Of a DNA stretch of 64,000 bases, positions 973 to 13,344 are shown piece by piece; positions within the stretch are counted from its first letter, which is position 1, and every line of letters starts with the position of its first letter. The DNA comes from Planctomycetota bacterium (GTDB taxonomy: Bacteria > Planctomycetota > Phycisphaerae > Phycisphaerales > UBA5793), in assembly GCA_013112555.1 (NCBI GenBank), contig JABFGK010000001.1:2578581-2642580 (forward strand). The letters are read 5' to 3'. The notes below the pieces were generated by a model. That model made no database searches and was not told the origin of the DNA. It saw only the letters and a program-made list of their open reading frames with translations. The position numbers and the translations under genes were made by a program.

Positions 973-1872
973 TCAGCGGACGATGATGGTCGTATCACGC
1001 TGCTGCCGGCCGAAGTTGAACACATCCTCGACGTTCGGATACAGGATGATCCCGCGTTCCACATCCGTCACGGAGTTAAAGACGGTGCTGATGTTGTTGA
1101 ACAGCGTCATCCATTGCGCCTTGCCGCTCTTGGCAATCATGAGCGTATCGCCGCGCTGCAATAGGATGTTCGAGGTCCAGGCACCGCTCTCCAGCGGATT
1201 CAACATCGCTTCGTGATAATTGAAGATCCCGGCAGCAATGTACGGGGGCCGATCCTGAGACACGCGTCGAACCAGAACCATCCGCTTCGTGTCAGCATCC
1301 GGGTGCGGCCCGCCTGCCTCTGTGATCGCATCGATCAGCGTCATGTCACGTCGCAGTGCAATCCGGCCCGGCTTGTTCACATACCCCAGCACGTTCACAT
1401 ACTGCTGCTCGTAACTCGTCAGGTTCACACTCACATGCGGCTCGACGTAGTACTCGCCCAACCGCTGACTCAGTTTCTCGCGTATGTCGATCGTCGTCAG
1501 CCCCTCGGCCTTCACGCTCCCGGCATACGGGAACTGGAAGCGCCCGTCGATATCAATCTTGAAGGCACCGTCCATGCGGTCGTCTTCGAGGACCCGCACA
1601 TCAATCTCATCCCCCGGGGCCAGGAGATATGGCAGCCTCGGCATGGCAGCCACGAGGCTATTGACGTCGTTCTCCCCGACAGTCTGCCCGCCGGATCCGG
1701 AACCGAGTATGACCGCCTCCTGCAGCGTCTTGTTCGGCCTGTTACACCCACCGACCAACACCAGCGCCAACGCCAGCAGCGGAACGAACAGCAGCGAGCG
1801 CCGTGATCGGCTCAGAGCAGTCATCCGTATCGGTCTCTGTTCGCAAGCGATGCGCCAAGGCTCGTGTAGCAT
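973..1872 (-). CDS. Polysaccharide biosynthesis/export protein (Wza-like, SLBB domain), lipoprotein
   Basis: 299 aa; lipobox-like LVGGC; YLLAPGDEIDVRV...GRFQFPYAGSVKAEGLT, then SLBB-like VNVLGYVNKPGRIALRRDMTLIDAITEAGG. Confidence 0.88.
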   Translation of the reverse strand: MLHEPWRIACEQRPIRMTALSRSRRSLLFVPLLALALVLVGGCNRPNKTLQEAVILGSGSGGQTVGENDVNSLVAAMPRLPYLLAPGDEIDVRVLEDDRMDGAFKIDIDGRFQFPYAGSVKAEGLTTIDIREKLSQRLGEYYVEPHVSVNLTSYEQQYVNVLGYVNKPGRIALRRDMTLIDAITEAGGPHPDADTKRMVLVRRVSQDRPPYIAAGIFNYHEAMLNPLESGAWTSNILLQRGDTLMIAKSGKAQWMTLFNNISTVFNSVTDVERGIILYPNVEDVFNFGRQQRDTTIIVR

Positions 1873-2241: not shown

Positions 2242-3054
2242 GTGGCCGCCACCACTTCTCACAGACTGCCAATCATCGTCTACCACAGTGTCGACGAGAA
2301 AAAAACATCCATCTCGACACCCCTGGCCTTTTTCAAGACCCATATCAACTGGCTCGCTGAGCACGGCTGGTCCACCATCCGACTCTCACAGGCAGCCCAA
2401 ATTGTCAAACAAGGCGGGAATCTCCCTCCCCGATCGTGTGTACTGACCTTTGACGATGCCATGCAATCGATCCGGGATATTGCCGACCCCATCCTCCGCG
2501 ACCATGGCTTCACAGCCACGACCTTTGTCGTCACAGGCCAGGCAGGGGAAAAGCCACACTGGTTCCGCCTCCCCGATCCATACCGAGATGAACCCCTCCT
2601 CGGCCGGGCCGACCTTGAGAAACTGGCTGAAAACGGCTGGGAAATGCACCCCCACACCCACAACCACCCCGTCATGTCCCATCTGCCGGAGGACGTTCAG
2701 CGCGAAGAAATCGAAAAAAGCCGCAGTGTCATCCGGGACTGGTTTGATCAGCCCGGCGACGTCCTGGCTTACCCCTACGGCCAGTTCAATAACGACACAC
2801 AAAGAGCCATGACAGCCTGCGGGATGGCAGCCGGCGTCTCCCTCCGATTCTCCGCGAGCGTCCAAAGCAACTGCCTGATGGACTGCCCTCGAATCGGGTC
2901 GGCCTGGTTCAAAGACTCACCATTGCGCATCAAACTCGCAACAGCCGGCCTTCTTGAGTGGTATGTGTCTGCAAAAGCAAGACTTAAGGGAGACCGCTCA
3001 CGCCATTTCCAAACACCGACGTCAGAAACCGTCCAGGGCCTGATCGAATGCTGA
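2242..3054 (+). CDS. Polysaccharide deacetylase (NodB homology domain)
   Basis: VLTFDDAMQSI (TFDD motif), HTHNHPVMSHLP, LAYPYGQFN. Confidence 0.9.
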   Translation: MAATTSHRLPIIVYHSVDEKKTSISTPLAFFKTHINWLAEHGWSTIRLSQAAQIVKQGGNLPPRSCVLTFDDAMQSIRDIADPILRDHGFTATTFVVTGQAGEKPHWFRLPDPYRDEPLLGRADLEKLAENGWEMHPHTHNHPVMSHLPEDVQREEIEKSRSVIRDWFDQPGDVLAYPYGQFNNDTQRAMTACGMAAGVSLRFSASVQSNCLMDCPRIGSAWFKDSPLRIKLATAGLLEWYVSAKARLKGDRSRHFQTPTSETVQGLIEC

Positions 3055-3600: not shown

Positions 3601-5244
3601 ATGAATCGAATCGATGGACATAACGAGACGGCCCCCCTGGGGTTTGACGCCGAAGGCTGGCCCATGCCCGAAGTGCGAGCCATGATGATTGACAACTTCA
3701 GTCGATCATGGACACGCCACTGGATCGCGGTCGCCATCATCTTTGTGATCACGGTGTTCCTGGTGATGTTCTCCGTGTTCCTGGTCACCCCGCGCTGGGA
3801 GGGCCAATCTCTGGCCATGATCAACGAGCAGGCGTTACCGAATCTGGCGATTTCCAACGCCTCCTCCACCGATACCGGCCGGCCGGATGCCAGCACCACC
3901 GTCGGGAATCTCATCGAGATTGCCAAGAGCAGGCCCTTCCTCACCGAAGTCGTCCGCGATCTCAAACTCGATCAGTACTTCCAGGACAAGGCATCAAGCC
4001 CCGGCCCGCGCGATCGCATCAAGCAGACGATCATGAACGTCGTCACACTTCGCTTCCTGCGATCCGGCGGCCAGCCGGATTGGGAGAGCCGAGCCGTCGA
4101 GGAACTCCAATCCAAGTGGCTCGCCTCCACCCCGATGGAGCGCACTTCGATGGTGCCGATCCTCATCTACGGCGACAATCCCGTAAAAACCATGGAAGTC
4201 GGCGATGCGATCCTCGACCACCTCAAGGTCTTCATGGATCGCCTGTATCGACAGAACATTGAGGGGTTGCTGCCCGCACTGCGGACCGAGACCGAATCAC
4301 TCGAAACGCAGATTGCCAACGATGAGCAGCAGATCACCGACCTGCTGGCCGGCATCGGCTACGCCGACCCGAAGTCCTATGCCGACCTCGTCATGAGCGG
4401 CCTGGCTGACCTTCAGCAGCAAAAAGCCACCATCGATCTCGAAATCCGCTCAGCCCAGGCGACCGAACTGAGACTGCAGGAGGAACTGAAACTCATCCCT
4501 GAGTTTGCCAAGGTCATGAGCGAGACTTCCTCCGAAAAACCGATGCTCCGGATGTCGGAACAACTCGGCATGCAGGTTGCCAACAAGCAAGCGGAGCGTC
4601 AAGGCATGCTCCAGAATCTGCCGGCAAACTCACCGAAGATCACCTCGCTTGATGCTCAGATTCAGGCGCTGATGGATGCCCAGGAACAAGCCAAGCAGAC
4701 CGAGGCACAACAGGTTGCCGGCGAGCGCATCACCGACACACTCGACCCCAGACACCGACAGACGTTCGGCCAATGGCTCGAAGCGGCCGCGAAAGTAGCG
4801 AGTCTCGAGGCGCGTCAACTCGGCCTCGGTGCGGCGATGGAGACACTCAATAGTTCGCAGCGCGAAGCCATCACCGCCGCACAACAGTTGGAGCGCTTCG
4901 AACGCCAGAAGACGCTGCATGTTTCACAGTACAACGCTCGCTACTCGAAACTGATCGAGTTCGAGACGATGCTCGAGCAGCCGACGCTGTTCAACGTCAT
5001 GCAGAAGGTCGCCCCGACCTCGGTCAAGAGCACCAAGAAGCCTGACAATCCGAACATGCTCCTGGCAGCCATCATTGCCGTCGTGCTGGGCGTGTTTACG
5101 GCACTCCTGCTGCCCATCGGGTTTGACTACATCAATCAAACCCTGATGAGCAGCCGACAGGCGTCGGCCATCCCGGGCGTGCGCGTGATCGCGGCCGTAC
5201 CGAAGTCCAGTTCCCGCAAGATGTACACCCCTGCGAGTCTTTGA
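3601..5244 (+). CDS. Wzz/GumC-type chain-length determinant (exopolysaccharide)
   Basis: 547 aa; N-terminal TM (IAVAIIFVITVFLVMFSVFLV), long coiled coil, C-terminal TM (MLLAAIIAVVLGVFTALLLPIGFDYINQTL). Confidence 0.8.
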   Translation: MNRIDGHNETAPLGFDAEGWPMPEVRAMMIDNFSRSWTRHWIAVAIIFVITVFLVMFSVFLVTPRWEGQSLAMINEQALPNLAISNASSTDTGRPDASTTVGNLIEIAKSRPFLTEVVRDLKLDQYFQDKASSPGPRDRIKQTIMNVVTLRFLRSGGQPDWESRAVEELQSKWLASTPMERTSMVPILIYGDNPVKTMEVGDAILDHLKVFMDRLYRQNIEGLLPALRTETESLETQIANDEQQITDLLAGIGYADPKSYADLVMSGLADLQQQKATIDLEIRSAQATELRLQEELKLIPEFAKVMSETSSEKPMLRMSEQLGMQVANKQAERQGMLQNLPANSPKITSLDAQIQALMDAQEQAKQTEAQQVAGERITDTLDPRHRQTFGQWLEAAAKVASLEARQLGLGAAMETLNSSQREAITAAQQLERFERQKTLHVSQYNARYSKLIEFETMLEQPTLFNVMQKVAPTSVKSTKKPDNPNMLLAAIIAVVLGVFTALLLPIGFDYINQTLMSSRQASAIPGVRVIAAVPKSSSRKMYTPASL

Positions 5245-5247
5245 ACC

Positions 5248-5979
5248 ATGATGAATGAAGCATTCGACGATCTGGCGTTGGACACAGAGGCTCCCGAGTC
5301 CGGGACGGCAGGACTGACCGGCACGCCGGCAGACCTCATGCCCTCGCACCCGCTGACCCAGCATCTGACGCGCCTGCTCACGGCACCCCCGTCTGCCCGC
5401 GTGGCCATGGCCGTCGGCGAACTGGCCTCGGCGATGGATCATGCCGCCGGCGACGACGCCTTTGCCGTCGCCGTCAGTGCCGTCAAACCGGGACACAAGA
5501 TGGGATTCACGGCCCTCACCCTGGCGGCCCTCTGGGGACGCTGGGGACGACCGACCTGCCTCATCGAACTCGGGACCGGCAAGACCTCCATCGGCGGGGC
5601 CGTCCGGTCCACCAGCCCCGACTTGGCCGCAGCCTGCGATCAGGCATCGGCCGGCCGACGCGTCACCGGAGTCTCGAGCCTGCATGCCCAACTACCGGAT
5701 ACCGGCATCATCGCAGCGAATCAGGGCGACGTCCTGCAACTCGTCTCCCGGGGCGGGCTCAAACTCCTCGTCAACTCACTGAAGAATGACTTCGAACGCA
5801 TCGTCGTCGCAGCACCGTCGATGGAAAGTGCGTTCCCCGTTCTTTCACTGTACGGCTTTTGCGATCGACTCGTGATGAGCCTCGTCGCCGGCGAAAGCCG
5901 CGCTGCCCCGCTGCGCGAACTGGCCAAGCACGCACTCATGCAGGGAATGCCTCCCATCGAAGCCATCTGGCACGATTAA
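5248..5979 (+). CDS. CpsD/BY-kinase-like ATPase-fold protein with degenerate nucleotide-binding motifs
   Basis: VAVSAVKPGHKMGFTALTLAALWGRWGRPTCLIELGTGKT aligns by eye with the P-loop/Walker A' region of BY-kinases; FERIVVAAPSMES aligns with Walker B; immediately follows the wzz-like gene. Confidence 0.6.
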   Translation: MMNEAFDDLALDTEAPESGTAGLTGTPADLMPSHPLTQHLTRLLTAPPSARVAMAVGELASAMDHAAGDDAFAVAVSAVKPGHKMGFTALTLAALWGRWGRPTCLIELGTGKTSIGGAVRSTSPDLAAACDQASAGRRVTGVSSLHAQLPDTGIIAANQGDVLQLVSRGGLKLLVNSLKNDFERIVVAAPSMESAFPVLSLYGFCDRLVMSLVAGESRAAPLRELAKHALMQGMPPIEAIWHD

Positions 5980-6083
5980 CAAGTAATCGTCCCTTTGTTC
6001 CGGAACGAGTCGGCCAGGCCGCCCGCACACGTCACCACGATGACTATGCGGCAACCGGCCGGCACCCACGGGGTCACCAGACC

Positions 6084-7631
6084 ATGCTTGCAGCCCTCGA
6101 CCAGTCGATGAGACGCAGACAGGTGCTCTTCTTCACCGTGCTGCTGCTCCCGCTCATGGCGCTGCTGGGACTGGTCGGCGTGGTCATCTCCAGAGTCACC
6201 GGCTACACCCTCCCCATTGCTGCCGGCGGTGCCATGATGGGCATCATTCTCGGCATCGTCGTCTTCGGCGTGAACTGGCGGATCGGCCTGTATGCCATCA
6301 TGTTCCTCGTCCTGTGGGATCGATGGCTCCTGATTACTGAGCGCGGCGGGCTCAATGCGACCAAGATCGCCATCGGACTCACCATCATCTTCATGGCCGG
6401 TGCCATTCTCAGTCGCGAACTCCCGCGCTGGTGGGAGCGGCTGGTGGACGCCATCCCCCTCGTCGCACTCGGATTCGTCCTCATGACGCTCTGGTCATTT
6501 GCCTGGACCCCACACCCGGACCGTGCCATCGACTTCCTGACACGCCGGCTCAACTGCGTCGTCCTGCTGGCACTCGTCATGGTGGCCGTCACCGACCGCG
6601 AAGTGCTGCATCGGGCAGTTTTGTTCTTCGTCCTGGGCGGGATCGTCTGCGCTGCCCTGGCCATGAGTGAGCTATTCACGGGCAAATCCATCCTCGAACT
6701 GCGTGGACTCGCTTCCGAGGAATCCGGCAAGAATGTGCTCCAGGAAGGGTTCGGCGGCCGACTCCGTATTGTCGGACCATCCGGTGACGCCCCCTTCTGG
6801 AGTCTGGCGATCAGTGCGCCCGGAATCCTCCTGTTCGGCCTGCTGTTTTATTACCGAGACTGGAAGAAGCGCCTGGTCATGCTGGCAGGCGTCCTCCTCG
6901 TTGCCCTCAACATCATGGCGACCGGTGCACGCGGCGGGGCCTTGTGCTTCCTGGCCGGTTGTGCAGCCGTCATGCTGCTGTGCCCCATCAAACACAAGGC
7001 CTCGAAGGTGGCGGTGGCGATCGCAGCCTTCATCATCCTGCTCGGGGCGATGCTCCTGTTCAGTGACCAAAGCGCGGCCGGCCGAATTGCCGACCCCACG
7101 CGCGCCACGTCCACCGTCGATTACCGAATCTCGAACTGGTACATGGTCTGGGATATGTACGAGCAGCGGCCCTGGACCGGCCACGGCGTCAACACCTACA
7201 CCATGTTCTACCCCTGGTACCGAATCCCCGGATCATCCGGCGAACCAGTCCGGCCGCTCAACTCATTCATGCAGGCCCTCCAGGAGTCCGGGATCCAATG
7301 CGTACTCGCCTACACACTCCTGTACGTGTTTTCATGGTTTGCAGCCGGCTGTGCGGCGCTGAGTACGAGCGATCGACGATTGCGCTTTGAGGCCACCGCC
7401 CTCATCGGCGTCGTCTTCGGGTTCTTCCTGTTTGCCGGCACGTCAAATGTACTCGAAAATGAGTTGTACTTCCTCATCTTCGGCCTGTGCGGTGCGTGCT
7501 ATAACGTCGCGAGACAGGAGCACGCGATCTGGCCCACCCTCGGGGCCGATTTCATGCAGCCGGCTTACCAGTACCGCCTCACTGCGGCCCTTGAGGCCCG
7601 CCAGCGAGCCAAATACCCCGTCGGAGGCTGA
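6084..7631 (+). CDS. O-antigen ligase/polymerase family membrane protein (Wzy/EpsE-like)
   Basis: ~12 hydrophobic segments; ...TGHGVNTYTMFYPWYR...LNSFMQALQESGIQ typical of the O-antigen ligase family; likely start ATG 6084 (MLAALDQSMRRRQVLFFTV). Confidence 0.8.
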   Translation: MLAALDQSMRRRQVLFFTVLLLPLMALLGLVGVVISRVTGYTLPIAAGGAMMGIILGIVVFGVNWRIGLYAIMFLVLWDRWLLITERGGLNATKIAIGLTIIFMAGAILSRELPRWWERLVDAIPLVALGFVLMTLWSFAWTPHPDRAIDFLTRRLNCVVLLALVMVAVTDREVLHRAVLFFVLGGIVCAALAMSELFTGKSILELRGLASEESGKNVLQEGFGGRLRIVGPSGDAPFWSLAISAPGILLFGLLFYYRDWKKRLVMLAGVLLVALNIMATGARGGALCFLAGCAAVMLLCPIKHKASKVAVAIAAFIILLGAMLLFSDQSAAGRIADPTRATSTVDYRISNWYMVWDMYEQRPWTGHGVNTYTMFYPWYRIPGSSGEPVRPLNSFMQALQESGIQCVLAYTLLYVFSWFAAGCAALSTSDRRLRFEATALIGVVFGFFLFAGTSNVLENELYFLIFGLCGACYNVARQEHAIWPTLGADFMQPAYQYRLTAALEARQRAKYPVGG

Positions 7632-7816
7632 AAACCAGCCGGCAGGACACTGGCAGACGGGAAGACAGCCGAACACGCGAAAACCGGCGACCGAATGTAT
7701 CGGTGATGACCGATTGAATACACTGTCATGGGTGGATGGACGGCTGTTTTTTGCCCCACCCGACACCCGGGGGATCCAGAATCCCCACCAGTCATACAGA
7801 GATTTGCAACCAACAG

Positions 7817-9625
7817 ATGGCACGGCATGTCGAAACCCGAGTCCTGGCACGTACCGATCCTCAGGATCGCAGCGCGATGCTCGCGTCTCCTCCGCAGGCA
7901 GGATCAGGCAGCCGCTCCGAGTGGTTTCCCCCACTGCCGTCAAACACTCGCCGATCCGGATTCGGCTGGCTTCGATTCTGCCTGGCCTCGATCCGCTTCC
8001 ACCCGATCCAGTTCATCGGGACCATCCTGCTCATCTCCTGTGCCGGGATCATCTCCCTCTGGCTACGTCCCGTCGCGTGGCAGGCCACGGCCCAACTGCA
8101 CGTCCCCAACTCGATTGAGCCGGTCGTCGATATGGCCGCAGCACCCGTTGAACAACAGCGGGCCGTCCTGCTTGATCTCAATGCCACTGATGTGGCAGAA
8201 CTCCTCAAGTCACGCACACTCCTCCATTCCGTGCGCGAGGCCATCGCTCAACAGGATCCGGGTCAGGCGTCAGGCCGGCTGCCCGGTGCCCCGATCCGCT
8301 TGACGCTTGACGACGCAGACCAGGCCGGTGACATCGGCACCCTGGCGACCCGGGCGCGCGATTCCGCACGGGCCGCGTGGGCATCGCTCCGTGCTCGCAT
8401 GCGCGACGGCGCTGCCTGGTTCGGCCTCACCACCCCCATTGCCACGGCTGACGATCCTCCGGCTGCCGACCCGGATCATGCCGGCGGAGCCCTCGTTTTC
8501 GGCATTGAGGTCCATCCTGCCGACCGCGATCAGAACGTCATTTCCTTTGATGTCTGGGCCAATCAACCCCAGACGGCTCGGCAGGCAGCCGATCTGCTCG
8601 TCATGGCTGTCCGCACACAACTGACCACTATTTATCAGGACCGAGCCGTGCGACGGTGGGAACAACTTGTCCCTTCGCTCGAAGACTTGTCCATCAACCG
8701 GGCAGCAGCCCGGACTGAACTGCAGCAGTTCCGAGCCGGGCTCGAAAAGCAGAATCCGGCTGCGTATGCCAAACGCCTCGAAGAACTCGTTGCCGATTCG
8801 CGTGCCAGACTCGCGGCCCTCGAAACCGAGAAATCCGAAATCGAAGCCCAGCGGCACAGCGTACTCGGGCAGCTCAATGAGATCAGCCTCGATTCACAGG
8901 AGGAGATCGTCTCAGCAGACAATCCACGCCTCAGCGAGTTGATGGGAGAGATCAGCGACCTTGAAGCCGAGTATGCCTCCAAACTCGCACGCTACACCGA
9001 GAAACATGCCGAGATGGTGCAACTGCGCAGCCAGATCGACTCCAAGAAGGAGGAGTTAAGTACGCTGCAGCAGACCGTCATCACCGAACGCGTCACGGCA
9101 CCGAACCCGGTGTTCCGCGACCTCATTCGAACGCAGATGGAACTGGATCAACGGCTCAACCAACTCGCCGGTCGAGAAATGGGACTGGCACGAGCCGAGA
9201 CGGAACTCTCCGAGGAACTCCGGAACACGTCGGCGGTTGCCGAACAACTGGCCACCCTTGAGACGACTGCAGCGCACCTCGAGACCGAGTGGCAGGCACT
9301 CAAGACTGAGACCGGCTGGCTTCGAGCCATCTCCGACGACGACTTCCTCCTGGCCGACCTCGGCCTGTCGCATCCGGCTGTGGTCAACGATCCGACCCGG
9401 CCTGACCGACCGGTCACCTCAATCCACCTCGGGATCAGCGCTGCCCTGGCCCTGTTCGGCTCCCTCTTCCTCTGCGTCCTCCGTGCAGCCTGGCGCAACC
9501 GGGCCCTCGGACGCTGGCAGGTTGAGGATCTGAGCCAACGCGTCCCGCTGGTCGTGGTCGCTGAGTTGCCCAAGACCTCCTACCGGCGATTGCTGCGCAG
9601 GCAGGCTCCGAAGGCACTGGCATGA
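7817..9625 (+). CDS. Second Wzz/GumC-type chain-length determinant
   Basis: N- and C-terminal TMs around a long coiled coil (LEELVADSRARLAALETEKSEIEAQRHSVLGQL...); ORF open from 7736, ATG 7817 plausible (MARHVETRV). Confidence 0.75.
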   Translation: MARHVETRVLARTDPQDRSAMLASPPQAGSGSRSEWFPPLPSNTRRSGFGWLRFCLASIRFHPIQFIGTILLISCAGIISLWLRPVAWQATAQLHVPNSIEPVVDMAAAPVEQQRAVLLDLNATDVAELLKSRTLLHSVREAIAQQDPGQASGRLPGAPIRLTLDDADQAGDIGTLATRARDSARAAWASLRARMRDGAAWFGLTTPIATADDPPAADPDHAGGALVFGIEVHPADRDQNVISFDVWANQPQTARQAADLLVMAVRTQLTTIYQDRAVRRWEQLVPSLEDLSINRAAARTELQQFRAGLEKQNPAAYAKRLEELVADSRARLAALETEKSEIEAQRHSVLGQLNEISLDSQEEIVSADNPRLSELMGEISDLEAEYASKLARYTEKHAEMVQLRSQIDSKKEELSTLQQTVITERVTAPNPVFRDLIRTQMELDQRLNQLAGREMGLARAETELSEELRNTSAVAEQLATLETTAAHLETEWQALKTETGWLRAISDDDFLLADLGLSHPAVVNDPTRPDRPVTSIHLGISAALALFGSLFLCVLRAAWRNRALGRWQVEDLSQRVPLVVVAELPKTSYRRLLRRQAPKALA

Positions 9626-10548
9626 GCACGCGCAAGAGCAATAGCACATCCAGCAAAGCCGGCCAAACGACTGACCACCACGATCCCAAGCCGGGCGCGG
9701 CAGCATCCTCGCCAGAGGAGGCCGACGCTCACACCAACCGGGCCGATGCAGACGACCCGCAGACCTCGCTCACAACCACGGCCGATGAGTCTGACTCATC
9801 ATCATCAACATCGTCATCAACTTCTGATTCCAGCAGCGCACAGATCCTCCCGGCCGAGCCGGGCTGGATGTCGCGACGCCCGGCGACCGAACCGGCACTC
9901 ACCCGTCAGAAGCGAGGCAAGGGCACCATCCGGCGACTGGCTCGGCGACTGGCCGGCGGGGATGACTCCTCCGAAGCCATGACGGCCCTGGCCCGCGTCG
10001 CCGCTGACCTCCGCCGAACAACCGACCGTGCCTCCGTCTCCGTGGCCGTCACATCAACCGGCCCCGGCAATCGAATCGAACTGACGGCCATCGGGCTGGC
10101 CACCCTCTGGGCTCGATGGGAACACAATACGCTCCTGCTCGATGCAGCCGGCCTCACCCCGGTCAGTGCCATCAGCCGGACCTCGTTGGATGAGCTGGCC
10201 GAGGCACTGGCACGCGGCAGCGATCTCCCGGCGCCCCCGCTGCTCACGTCAGCGCTCGAACGGCTCGAAGTCATTGCCACAACTTCCGCAGCGTCACTGG
10301 CCCGCCTCAGTGAGACCGGCCAACTGGCCTTTTTGATGGAAGCATTGCGCAGCCGCTATGAACGGATCGTCTGGGCCTTGCCACCGGTCGGGTCAGCCGG
10401 CTGGGCCGTCTGCCTGGCCGATGGGATCATCGATCAGGTCATCCTCTCGGCCTGCCGTGGCAAAGCGAATCGTGCACGCATCGCTGATGCTGCCACCCAA
10501 CTCGCCGCCTCCGGCAAGCCGCCGCTGCAACTCTTCTGGCACGGGTGA
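9622..10548 (+). CDS. Second CpsD/BY-kinase-like protein with degenerate nucleotide-binding motifs
   Basis: ATGA overlap with the preceding gene; VAVTSTGPGNRIELTAIGLATLWARWEHNTLLLDAAGLTP and YERIVWALPPVGS correspond to Walker A/A'/B regions; C-terminus PPLQLFWHG resembles PPIEAIWHD of the first copy. Confidence 0.6.
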   Translation: MSTRKSNSTSSKAGQTTDHHDPKPGAAASSPEEADAHTNRADADDPQTSLTTTADESDSSSSTSSSTSDSSSAQILPAEPGWMSRRPATEPALTRQKRGKGTIRRLARRLAGGDDSSEAMTALARVAADLRRTTDRASVSVAVTSTGPGNRIELTAIGLATLWARWEHNTLLLDAAGLTPVSAISRTSLDELAEALARGSDLPAPPLLTSALERLEVIATTSAASLARLSETGQLAFLMEALRSRYERIVWALPPVGSAGWAVCLADGIIDQVILSACRGKANRARIADAATQLAASGKPPLQLFWHG

Positions 10549-10637: not shown

Positions 10638-11891
10638 ATGCCGGACGGAACACGAGACATCACGAATCACGCATCGACTCCCACCTCCGACGTGCCGCAG
10701 CCCGTCATCGAAAACGCACTGGTCATCCACCTATTCCTCGGGCGCGAAGCCGGCGGGATTACCAGCGCCATGGGTCAGTGGATCCCGGCCCAGATGGAAG
10801 CCGGCTGGCGGCACCTGGCCTTTTGCCTCCGACCCGGGGCCGTCGAGCGCGAAATGGAACGCTTTGCCGTCCCGGCCGTCGTCGCCGACAACGGCCGAGG
10901 GTACTCCACCCCCAAGCGCTTCTTTCACAAACTGCGCACCGAACTCCGCTCGCTCGGGCCGGCGATCATCCACGCCCACAATCCCGCCGCCCAGTTCTAC
11001 GCTGCCTGGCAACAACCGCGCCACGCCGAGCACCGCTGGCGCGTCGTGCGCACCGTCCATGCTGACTCCCGCCTGGAGATGAAACACAATCTCTCACTCC
11101 CCGGTCGACTCTTCTGGAACACGGCCTCTGCCTGGTCGATGGCGCATACCGACGGGCTGATCTGCATCCATGAGCATGTCCGTCAATGCCTGCCGACGAA
11201 GTACCAACAACAGGCCGTCGTCATGCCCAACGGTCTCAATGCTGCCGAAATCGAAAACTCAACCAAACCCCTGCCGACCGACCTGGCCGACTGGCTCGGG
11301 TCCGATGACATCCCCATGGTGCTGTCCATCGGCCGACTTGTTGACATCAAGCGATTCGATTGGGTCATCGACTGCTGGGCCAAAACGAAGACGGCACGGA
11401 ATCACGCAAGACTCGTCATCCTCGGTGAAGGGACGCAACGGGCTGCCCTGCAACAGCAGATTGAATCGCTCGGGTTGCAGGACTGCGTGCGGCTGCAACA
11501 CTGGACGGCTGACATTGCCCCGATCCTCAAGCGATCGTGCCTGACGGTCGTGGCCAGCAAGAGCGAAACCGGCCCGCTCGTCCTGCTCGAATCGATGGCA
11601 GCCGGTGCCGCATCCATTGCGACCCCCGTGGGCATTGTGCCCGATGTGATCGAGGAAGGAGTCACTGGCTGGATGATCGACCATCCGGACGATGCGAATC
11701 GGGCGGCCGATTCCGAGTGTCAGCAACTCGCTTCGTTGCTGGATCGCTTGCTTTCAGAGCCGGCCACACTCGAGGAAGCCGGGCGTTGTGCTCGGCGTCG
11801 CCTGGCCGAAACCCACAGCCACACGGCTGCCGCTGCTCGCCGCGCCGAGTTCTATAACCGTGTGCTGCAGCCCACCGGCAAGCCCGACTAA
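10638..11891 (+). CDS. Glycosyltransferase family 4
   Basis: 417 aa; VLSIGRLVDIKRFDWVIDCWAKT, LVILGEGTQRAALQQQI, ETGPLVLLESMAAGAASIATPVG. Confidence 0.9.
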   Translation: MPDGTRDITNHASTPTSDVPQPVIENALVIHLFLGREAGGITSAMGQWIPAQMEAGWRHLAFCLRPGAVEREMERFAVPAVVADNGRGYSTPKRFFHKLRTELRSLGPAIIHAHNPAAQFYAAWQQPRHAEHRWRVVRTVHADSRLEMKHNLSLPGRLFWNTASAWSMAHTDGLICIHEHVRQCLPTKYQQQAVVMPNGLNAAEIENSTKPLPTDLADWLGSDDIPMVLSIGRLVDIKRFDWVIDCWAKTKTARNHARLVILGEGTQRAALQQQIESLGLQDCVRLQHWTADIAPILKRSCLTVVASKSETGPLVLLESMAAGAASIATPVGIVPDVIEEGVTGWMIDHPDDANRAADSECQQLASLLDRLLSEPATLEEAGRCARRRLAETHSHTAAAARRAEFYNRVLQPTGKPD

Positions 11892-12132: not shown

Positions 12133-13344
12133 ATGAACTCGAGCAGGACCACTACCCCGATGCGATCCCGAATCCTGATTGCCGGCCTCCTGGTACCGGC
12201 CATGATGGCCCTGAGCTGGCCCTCCAACGCACAAATGTCTGACAGAGCGACCGGCATGCGGGGACGGGTCACCAGGCGGACCCGGCTGCCTGACAAGTCA
12301 CAGGATAACACGAAGCTGTGGGTCCACGGTGCCATCCATGCACCGGACAAGGTCGCCGGACTCGGGGCTGCCGGGGCCAGAGGCATTATCGATCTGCGCA
12401 AGGTCAAAAACGCCGACGAGGTCATCACTCGACTTGAGGAGTACAGACAACTCGGCATCGGCGTCTGCATCACCGTCCGCTGGCAAAGCCAGGACGGGAC
12501 GCACCATCTCGACACCCCGCCGACGGAAGAGGAATCGGACCATGCCGTCGCCACGCTGATGACGGCACTGACATCCGAACCGGCCAAGGCGCTGGCCGGA
12601 AAACTCTGGGTGCAGTTCTACAACGAACTCACGGCAGCCAGCCGGATCGATCCCAAAGACGCCGATGCGATGTTCGAGTTTGCCACGCGGGCAACACTCC
12701 AGATTCGCAAGGACGCCCCGTTCGTCAAGATCTGCGGGCCGGCCCTGACCGTGTCCCAGTTGCAATACAAGGACCCGAACAGGCTCCGCGCTCGCCAGCG
12801 TGAGCGCTACAACCTCCGTCAGCGAATCATCGAGTGGACGGCCAAGTATGCCGATGCGGCCGATGTTCATGCCCATGTCGATGGGCCCGCGGCTGCCACT
12901 GAGGCCATCCGTTCCCTCCGAGCGCTGCTTGATGAGCGGGACAACGGACCGAATGTCAAGATTGTCGCCATGGAATGGAGTGCCGCACGCTATCCCGATC
13001 GCACGGATACCGCCGGCGCACAAAAAGCCGTCAAGGATGTCTGGGCGGCCATCCAGGCCGAAGGCGTCACGATCGGTGCCTACGGGTCGCTCTACCCGGC
13101 ACTCACCTCAGGTGAAGCGTTTCAGTGGCAGTCAATCTGTAAGAGCGATGGTAAACCCAACGAGCCGTTCTTCACCACCCTCAGCGAACTCGCAGCCTCC
13201 GGTGGCGAGAACGCTGCGACGAATGACAAGGTCCAGAAGAAGGCACGAGGCTCCGCACGGCGACTTACTCGCGCGCGCCGAGTCTCCCGTCAATCGTCAG
13301 CAAAGCGCCGGGGTTCTGGCCTGCGAGGTCGAACATCGCGATGA
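12133..13344 (+). CDS. Secreted glycoside-hydrolase-like protein (TIM-barrel type)
   Basis: 403 aa with signal peptide; KLWVQFYNELTAASRIDP (N-E pair), VKIVAMEWSAARYPD resemble clan-A glycosidase motifs; preceded by gaggagtgagg. Confidence 0.5.
   Translation: MNSSRTTTPMRSRILIAGLLVPAMMALSWPSNAQMSDRATGMRGRVTRRTRLPDKSQDNTKLWVHGAIHAPDKVAGLGAAGARGIIDLRKVKNADEVITRLEEYRQLGIGVCITVRWQSQDGTHHLDTPPTEEESDHAVATLMTALTSEPAKALAGKLWVQFYNELTAASRIDPKDADAMFEFATRATLQIRKDAPFVKICGPALTVSQLQYKDPNRLRARQRERYNLRQRIIEWTAKYADAADVHAHVDGPAAATEAIRSLRALLDERDNGPNVKIVAMEWSAARYPDRTDTAGAQKAVKDVWAAIQAEGVTIGAYGSLYPALTSGEAFQWQSICKSDGKPNEPFFTTLSELAASGGENAATNDKVQKKARGSARRLTRARRVSRQSSAKRRGSGLRGRTSR

Follow-up and report, generated by a model that had tools for sequence, protein, structure and literature searches.

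Gene content of the locus

We analyzed a window of 64,000 nucleotides from a planctomycete genome (assembly GCA_013112555.1, contig JABFGK010000001.1), focusing on two genes, psK1 and psK2, that encode stand-alone relatives of bacterial tyrosine kinases (BY-kinases) in which key nucleotide-binding residues are missing. Both lie on the + strand in a putative exopolysaccharide (EPS) operon with the order Wzz1-psK1-Wzy-Wzz2-psK2-GT4. The first module consists of Wzz1 (3601..5244), a chain-length determinant of the polysaccharide co-polymerase 2 (PCP-2) type without a kinase domain, and psK1 (5248..5979); the second consists of Wzz2 (7736..9625), another kinase-less chain-length determinant, and psK2 (9622..10548). 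The 3-bp gap between Wzz1 and psK1 and the 4-bp overlap of Wzz2 with psK2 agree with an earlier note on this DNA, as do the coordinates of the reading frames. We assigned psK1 and psK2 as BY pseudokinases from profile matches to VpsO and from motif loss in 6/6 orthologs, together with AlphaFold and Foldseek results for psK1 and the NCBIfam model TIGR01007 for psK2. Between the two modules lies a Wzy/O-antigen-ligase-like polymerase gene (6084..7631, + strand; Pfam PF04932, E=1.5e-17), whose position is kept in 6/6 genomes. The ATG at 6084 is our choice of start in an open frame that begins further upstream. The conserved block ends with a glycosyltransferase of family 4 (GT4; 10638..11891, + strand), identified by Pfam PF13692 (E=3.8e-26), NCBIfam TIGR03088 (E=2.2e-31) and its conserved order.

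Both chain-length determinants were recognized through partial matches to NCBIfam TIGR03007 (Wzz1, E=2.9e-13, below the model cut-off; Wzz2, E=1.4e-12). Wzz1 additionally had a weak match to Pfam Wzz (E=0.014) and orthologs in 6/6 family genomes (35–37%), and a search with Wzz1 recovered Wzz2 (E=2.8e-7). Transmembrane segments span residues 36–67 and 483–512 of Wzz1 and residues ~88–115 and ~560–586 of Wzz2, and are accompanied by conserved cytoplasmic tails of ~35 and ~43 residues, respectively. Both proteins thus have what is expected of PCP-2 partners, namely two transmembrane helices, no kinase domain and a short cytoplasmic C-terminal tail. Conserved segments of these tails (PG-x-R-V-x-A-x-VP and LPV-x-LVGELP) resemble, at the sequence level, the linker strand that joins Wzz to the kinase in fused Wzc.

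Two further genes of polysaccharide metabolism lie upstream. A Wza-like outer membrane polysaccharide export protein is encoded on the − strand (973..1872), with Poly_export and SLBB domains (Pfam PF02563, E=5.7e-18; PF10531, E=3.6e-11) and a match to NCBIfam TIGR03027 (E=3.9e-24). It is followed by a polysaccharide deacetylase gene (2242..3054, + strand; Pfam PF01522, E=1.5e-24). The Pfam scan placed Wzy-like and Wza-like genes at the locus, candidate components of a Wzx/Wzy-dependent pathway.

Descent from BY-kinases

Sequence comparisons connected both proteins with BY-kinases. While psK1 had no Pfam match, psK2 matched the NCBIfam tyrosine autokinase model TIGR01007 (E=1.7e-8, well below the model cut-off), and the two proteins were homologous to each other (E=8e-18; 29% identity in pairwise alignment). 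Searched against the PDB, profiles built from six orthologs each had their best match in the VpsO kinase domain of Vibrio (6u1q), with E=3.3e-6 for psK2 and E=4.2e-5 for psK1. The AlphaFold model of psK1 (mean predicted local distance difference test score, pLDDT, 73; predicted template modelling score, pTM, 0.78) was compared with known structures using Foldseek. The top match was VpsO (E=1.8e-8), then Wzc (3la6, 5e-8), followed by CapAB, BceF and Etk, and the first 42 among the 50 PDB matches listed were BY-kinases from these five groups. The structural relation to BY-kinases that the earlier note had proposed was thus found for psK1. We conclude that psK1 and psK2 are BY-kinases by descent, psK1 by sequence and fold and psK2 by sequence.

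Loss of nucleotide-binding motifs

We read motif columns from a hidden Markov model-based alignment of psK1 and psK2 with BY-kinases of the class Phycisphaerae. The pseudokinase set comprised six psK1 and six psK2 proteins (12 in total) from six genomes in two genera. The Walker A Lys was present in 0/12 proteins, the column being occupied by I, A or M in psK1 and by H, Q or I in psK2, and the Lys within the psK1 string PGHKMG aligns with the second Walker A Gly, not with the catalytic column. The Walker B Asp was likewise absent (0/12; A or V in psK1, S or A in psK2). As a control we used 35 further kinase domains from the class, of which 27 had the Walker A Lys and all 35 an acidic Walker B residue. 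The motif strings that the earlier note had quoted for both reading frames were correct, and the losses of the Walker A Lys and Walker B Asp that it had described extend to every ortholog.

The Walker A' motif showed a more mixed pattern. Its second Asp/Asn was lost in 12/12 proteins, but the first position was acidic in all of them (Asp in 5/6 psK1 and Glu in 5/6 psK2). The statement that psK1 had lost this Asp holds in the window, where the residue is Glu, but not in the other five psK1 proteins, which have Asp. Similarly, the view that both proteins had lost all motifs is right for the Walker A Lys and the Walker B Asp, and slightly too strong given the acidic Walker A' residue.

Features related to oligomerization and phosphorylation were also missing. 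The octameric ring interface of BY-kinases is formed by the EX2RX2R motif and the Y-cluster (PMC3795738). The EX2RX2R motif was absent from 12/12 proteins and the last 40 residues contained 0–1 Tyr in each, in agreement with the note's finding of no C-terminal Tyr cluster. With neither half of the canonical interface left, psK1 or psK2 could form a ring only through other contacts. The tails of the two proteins are alike, as had been noticed, but this similarity reflects the last core beta-strand, which kinase relatives also possess. At this site the relatives read '..KPPLVVLNRKQYHVPGFLYRRL' and continue into a short Tyr-bearing tail, whereas psK1 and psK2 terminate there; in the psK1 model, the chain ends in this strand at residues 238–242. 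Significant homology, together with the recurrence of these losses in six genomes of two genera, makes the pattern more than chance. Separately, we observed that psK2 of the window begins with a low-complexity extension rich in Ser, Thr and Asp (9622–9910), which is found in none of its five orthologs.

Conservation, selection and duplication

The window's genome is the sole member of its genus in our set, and the other five come from a second genus in this GTDB family; one of these relatives, UBA5793, is placed by NCBI in the Phycisphaerales. The gene order given above was intact in 6/6 family genomes, with the two psK genes ~5 kb apart. Within the second genus, the ratio of nonsynonymous to synonymous substitutions (dN/dS) for psK2 was 0.054 in the closest pair (G003/G005), and other pairs ranged from 0.09 to 0.34. 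Pairs that included the window's genome had values of 0.30–0.60, with dS near saturation. Selection on psK1 and psK2 is purifying (dN/dS 0.05–0.34 within one genus). Decay in a single genome is rejected by the shared operon order and motif losses in six genomes and by these dN/dS values, and no ortholog with intact Walker motifs occurred among the six. The proposal that the pair are retained pseudokinases is therefore borne out by BY-kinase homology, motif loss in all orthologs, operon conservation and purifying selection.

Gene content between the modules was not identical across the family. The five genomes of the second genus, and not the window, carry a sulfotransferase-like gene between Wzy and Wzz2 (L036:10693-11571; PF13469, E=4.5e-23 in L036; same place in L037–L040), which suggests a sulfated polymer in that genus.

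In the phylogenetic tree, psK1 and psK2 formed sister clades (100/100), each monophyletic, and the duplication that produced them therefore predates the split of the two genera. The match between Wzz1 and Wzz2 fits duplication of the whole Wzz-pseudokinase module, and we conclude that psK1 and psK2 arose by duplication of one such module. A search of 145 further genomes of the order yielded no relatives of psK1. The combined clade sat at the end of a long branch (1.86) next to a stand-alone BY-kinase of another Phycisphaerae family (L041), with weak support for this placement (84/67). An origin from the fused Wzc described below is not favoured, as psK1 and psK2 fall outside the clade that it forms, although the same long branch and weak placement limit this conclusion.

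BY-kinase-like genes elsewhere in the genome, order and class

Besides psK1 and psK2, a single BY-kinase-like gene was found in the window's genome. It encodes a fused Wzc (G000:C1:1088105-1090363; L092:8106-10367), whose Walker A reads QPGAGSSS, with Ser replacing Lys. This gene belongs to an exosortase-linked locus, the second EPS locus of this genome; upstream of the Wzc gene (L092:40-3102) we observed genes for an SLBB protein, an exosortase (PF09721, E=2.2e-47) and an EpsI-like DUF3485 protein. No BY-kinase with a canonical Walker A was found in this genome, which is 92% complete, and an intact Walker A was found in a further paralog of four relatives (L057–L060).

Homologs of fused Wzc were present in 99/101 genomes of the order. 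The Walker A Lys was replaced in 70/70 genomes (L101–L130 and L161–L200) by T (23), A (21), S (10), V (10), G (3) or C (3), while 68 retained the first A' Asp and all 70 the Walker B Asp. The fused protein may possibly be a pseudokinase across the order or a nucleotide binder that works without the Lys. To us, this order-wide pattern is more surprising than the degeneration of psK1 and psK2 itself, and the motif losses of the latter therefore belong to a wider trend.

Other Phycisphaerae families also contain stand-alone BY-kinase genes after Wzz-like genes, split as in the window (L041, L137, L140, L146 and L160), and in three of these loci (L041, L140 and L146) a Wzy-like gene comes next, as it does after psK1. 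These proteins differ in how much of the active site has been lost. In the L041 protein the Walker A Lys is retained and the Asp residues of A' and B are replaced by Glu, whereas the window's family has lost nearly everything. In contrast to psK1 and psK2, the proteins of L137, L140, L146 and L160 lack the Walker A Lys only (x-x-G-[AV]-[ST]), with A' and B intact. Judged by sequence, this looks like graded motif loss across the Phycisphaerae, with the window's family at the far end. It is possible, though we hold this tentatively and with less than even confidence, that the whole order around the Phycisphaerales gave up the ATP-driven tyrosine-phosphorylation switch of Wzc-type polymerization, and that the duplicated module works without any active BY-kinase in the window's genome. 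This reading rests on the nearly universal fused Wzc of the order, which lacks the Lys and keeps the other site residues, and on some of the stand-alone partners in other families of the class, which have lost the Lys too.

Comparison with known systems

Stand-alone BY pseudokinases paired with a kinase-less PCP-2 have already been published as EcpK/EpsV and HfsB/HfsA, and EcpK binds EpsV and is required for EPS in Myxococcus xanthus (PMC12004946). As described there, EcpK resembles psK1 and psK2 in being a stand-alone BY-kinase fold without Walker A, A' and B motifs or a Tyr tail, and its partner EpsV is likewise a kinase-less PCP-2 with a short cytoplasmic tail. EcpK and EpsV act in a Wzy-dependent EPS pathway, as psK1 and psK2 probably do. 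HfsB/HfsA of Caulobacter crescentus, which acts in holdfast synthesis, shares the stand-alone pseudokinase, the kinase-less PCP-2 and the missing Tyr tail (PMC12004946). The window differs from EcpK/EpsV in having adjacent pseudokinase and PCP genes and two paralogous pairs around one Wzy, and from HfsB/HfsA in having two pairs instead of one. psK1 and psK2 also end at the last core strand without the Lys/Arg-rich C-terminal helix of EcpK, and retain an acidic A' residue. The C-terminal helix of HfsB, predicted to pack on the first transmembrane helix of HfsA (PMC12004946), likewise has no counterpart in psK1 or psK2. As this helix is described for EcpK and HfsB only, it is perhaps not a defining feature of such pseudokinases. 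The weak placement of psK1 and psK2 with a stand-alone Phycisphaerae kinase, if correct, would mean that their motifs were lost independently of EcpK and HfsB.

Two further systems have paired components. CapA/CapB of Staphylococcus aureus (PCP-2b) has the same split modulator/kinase architecture and a short PCP tail, and CapA1B1 and CapA2B2 are two paralogous pairs, as in the window, one of them with an inactive kinase (PMC3795738). In CapB1 and CapB2, however, the Walker motifs, EX2RX2R and a Y-cluster are all retained, in contrast to their loss from psK1 and psK2 (PMC3795738). In Rhizobium leguminosarum, PssP and PssP2 are two PCPs serving one EPS polymerase, and PssP2 lacks the Walker A, A' and B motifs and the Y-cluster, like psK1 and psK2 (PMC4182512). 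Unlike the window, this system does not consist of Wzz and stand-alone pseudokinase modules, and just one of the two PCPs is without motifs.

What is new here is the phylum, as far as the library that we searched extends, the doubled module around one Wzy and the graded loss across the Phycisphaerae; adjacent genes and the missing C-terminal helix also set the window apart from the published cases. We found no literature on planctomycete Wzc or BY pseudokinases in that library, which is not proof of absence.

Proposed role of the paired pseudokinases

We consider it likely that, in a Wzy-dependent EPS operon, the BY pseudokinases psK1 and psK2 serve as partners of Wzz1 and Wzz2, two PCP-2 proteins without a kinase domain, by binding their tails. 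Since the Wzz-pseudokinase pairs are kept by selection, the pathway is probably steered by protein binding rather than phosphorylation, as proposed in Myxococcus, and psK1 and psK2 may act as scaffolds or gates in chain-length control. Each pseudokinase would bind the short cytoplasmic tail of its own Wzz, and this tail would supply the juxtamembrane helix and strand that form part of the same chain in fused Wzc. Binding and release could then stabilize or time Wzz oligomerization around the single Wzy, so that neither ATP nor tyrosine phosphorylation would be needed to set chain length and to pass the polymer on to the Wza-like exporter. The two modules, which are not identical, could form on one Wzy two alternative PCP complexes, giving two chain-length settings, or one mixed complex.

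Several observations weigh against this proposal. The fold of psK2 could not be confirmed by structure, because the quality of the model built from five sequences was too low (pLDDT 48; best Foldseek E=7.5e-3), and the matches to BceF and Wzc at E ~1e-2 are simply consistent with a BY-kinase fold. psK1 lacks the C-terminal helix of EcpK and HfsB, and psK2 stops at the same place. The acidic first Walker A' residue may allow some ligand or metal role. The search for other kinases in the window's genome was limited by its completeness (92%).

The conserved acidic residue raises a first alternative, that a rebuilt pocket in psK1 and psK2 still accommodates a nucleotide, a metal or another small ligand, which would make them ligand-gated switches instead of passive scaffolds. 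A P-loop remnant resembling G-N-x-x-S in psK2 of five out of six orthologs would also fit. We regard this as unlikely, as the Walker A Lys, the Walker B acid and most P-loop glycines of psK1 are lost, and the substitutions differ among species with no hint of a new conserved catalytic set. A second alternative is that the pseudokinases act mainly on each other or on the fused Wzc, as a mixed ring or a regulator of another pathway, and not on the neighbouring Wzz. In its favour, the two genes are paralogs within the same operon, the genome also encodes a fused Wzc without the Lys at another locus, and the two Rhizobium PCPs on one polymerase form heterocomplexes (PMC4182512). However, each psK gene in the window adjoins its own Wzz gene, with a 3-bp gap or an overlap, and both Wzz proteins have a conserved tail, making this alternative quite improbable.

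Two remaining explanations are very hard to sustain. Functionless decay of kinase genes would agree with the strong divergence from kinases and with psK2 of the window, which is only 34–39% identical to its orthologs and carries an extension that they lack, but open frames and operon order persist in 6/6 genomes, dN/dS within the genus is low, and 12/12 proteins share new invariant residues, LW-[GA]-R-W on the helix after the former P-loop and a Trp near the C-terminus. That psK1 and psK2 are unrelated MinD/ParA-like proteins, which share the deviant Walker fold with BY-kinases, is equally improbable, because the best sequence and structure matches are specifically BY-kinases and the genes directly follow Wzz genes.

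In the current Wzc-type model, polymer synthesis needs PCP-2 to cycle between phosphorylated and dephosphorylated states. This model is now being questioned on the basis of stand-alone pseudokinases from Myxococcus and Caulobacter, and the planctomycete operon, with two such modules on one polymerase, is a further case. The natural series of proteins with the Lys kept, the Lys alone lost or nearly all motifs lost offers a test of which parts of the kinase domain serve assembly and which serve catalysis.

Additional observations

We considered a low-molecular-weight tyrosine phosphatase as a possible sign of phosphorylation cycling. The sole match in the window's genome precedes an RpiB-like gene and is not at an EPS locus, making it uninformative. 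Beside the operon, the window also encodes a conserved, secreted-looking protein (12133–13344) with no Pfam or NCBIfam match, which is present in four of the five relatives at 34–36% identity, sometimes in two copies.

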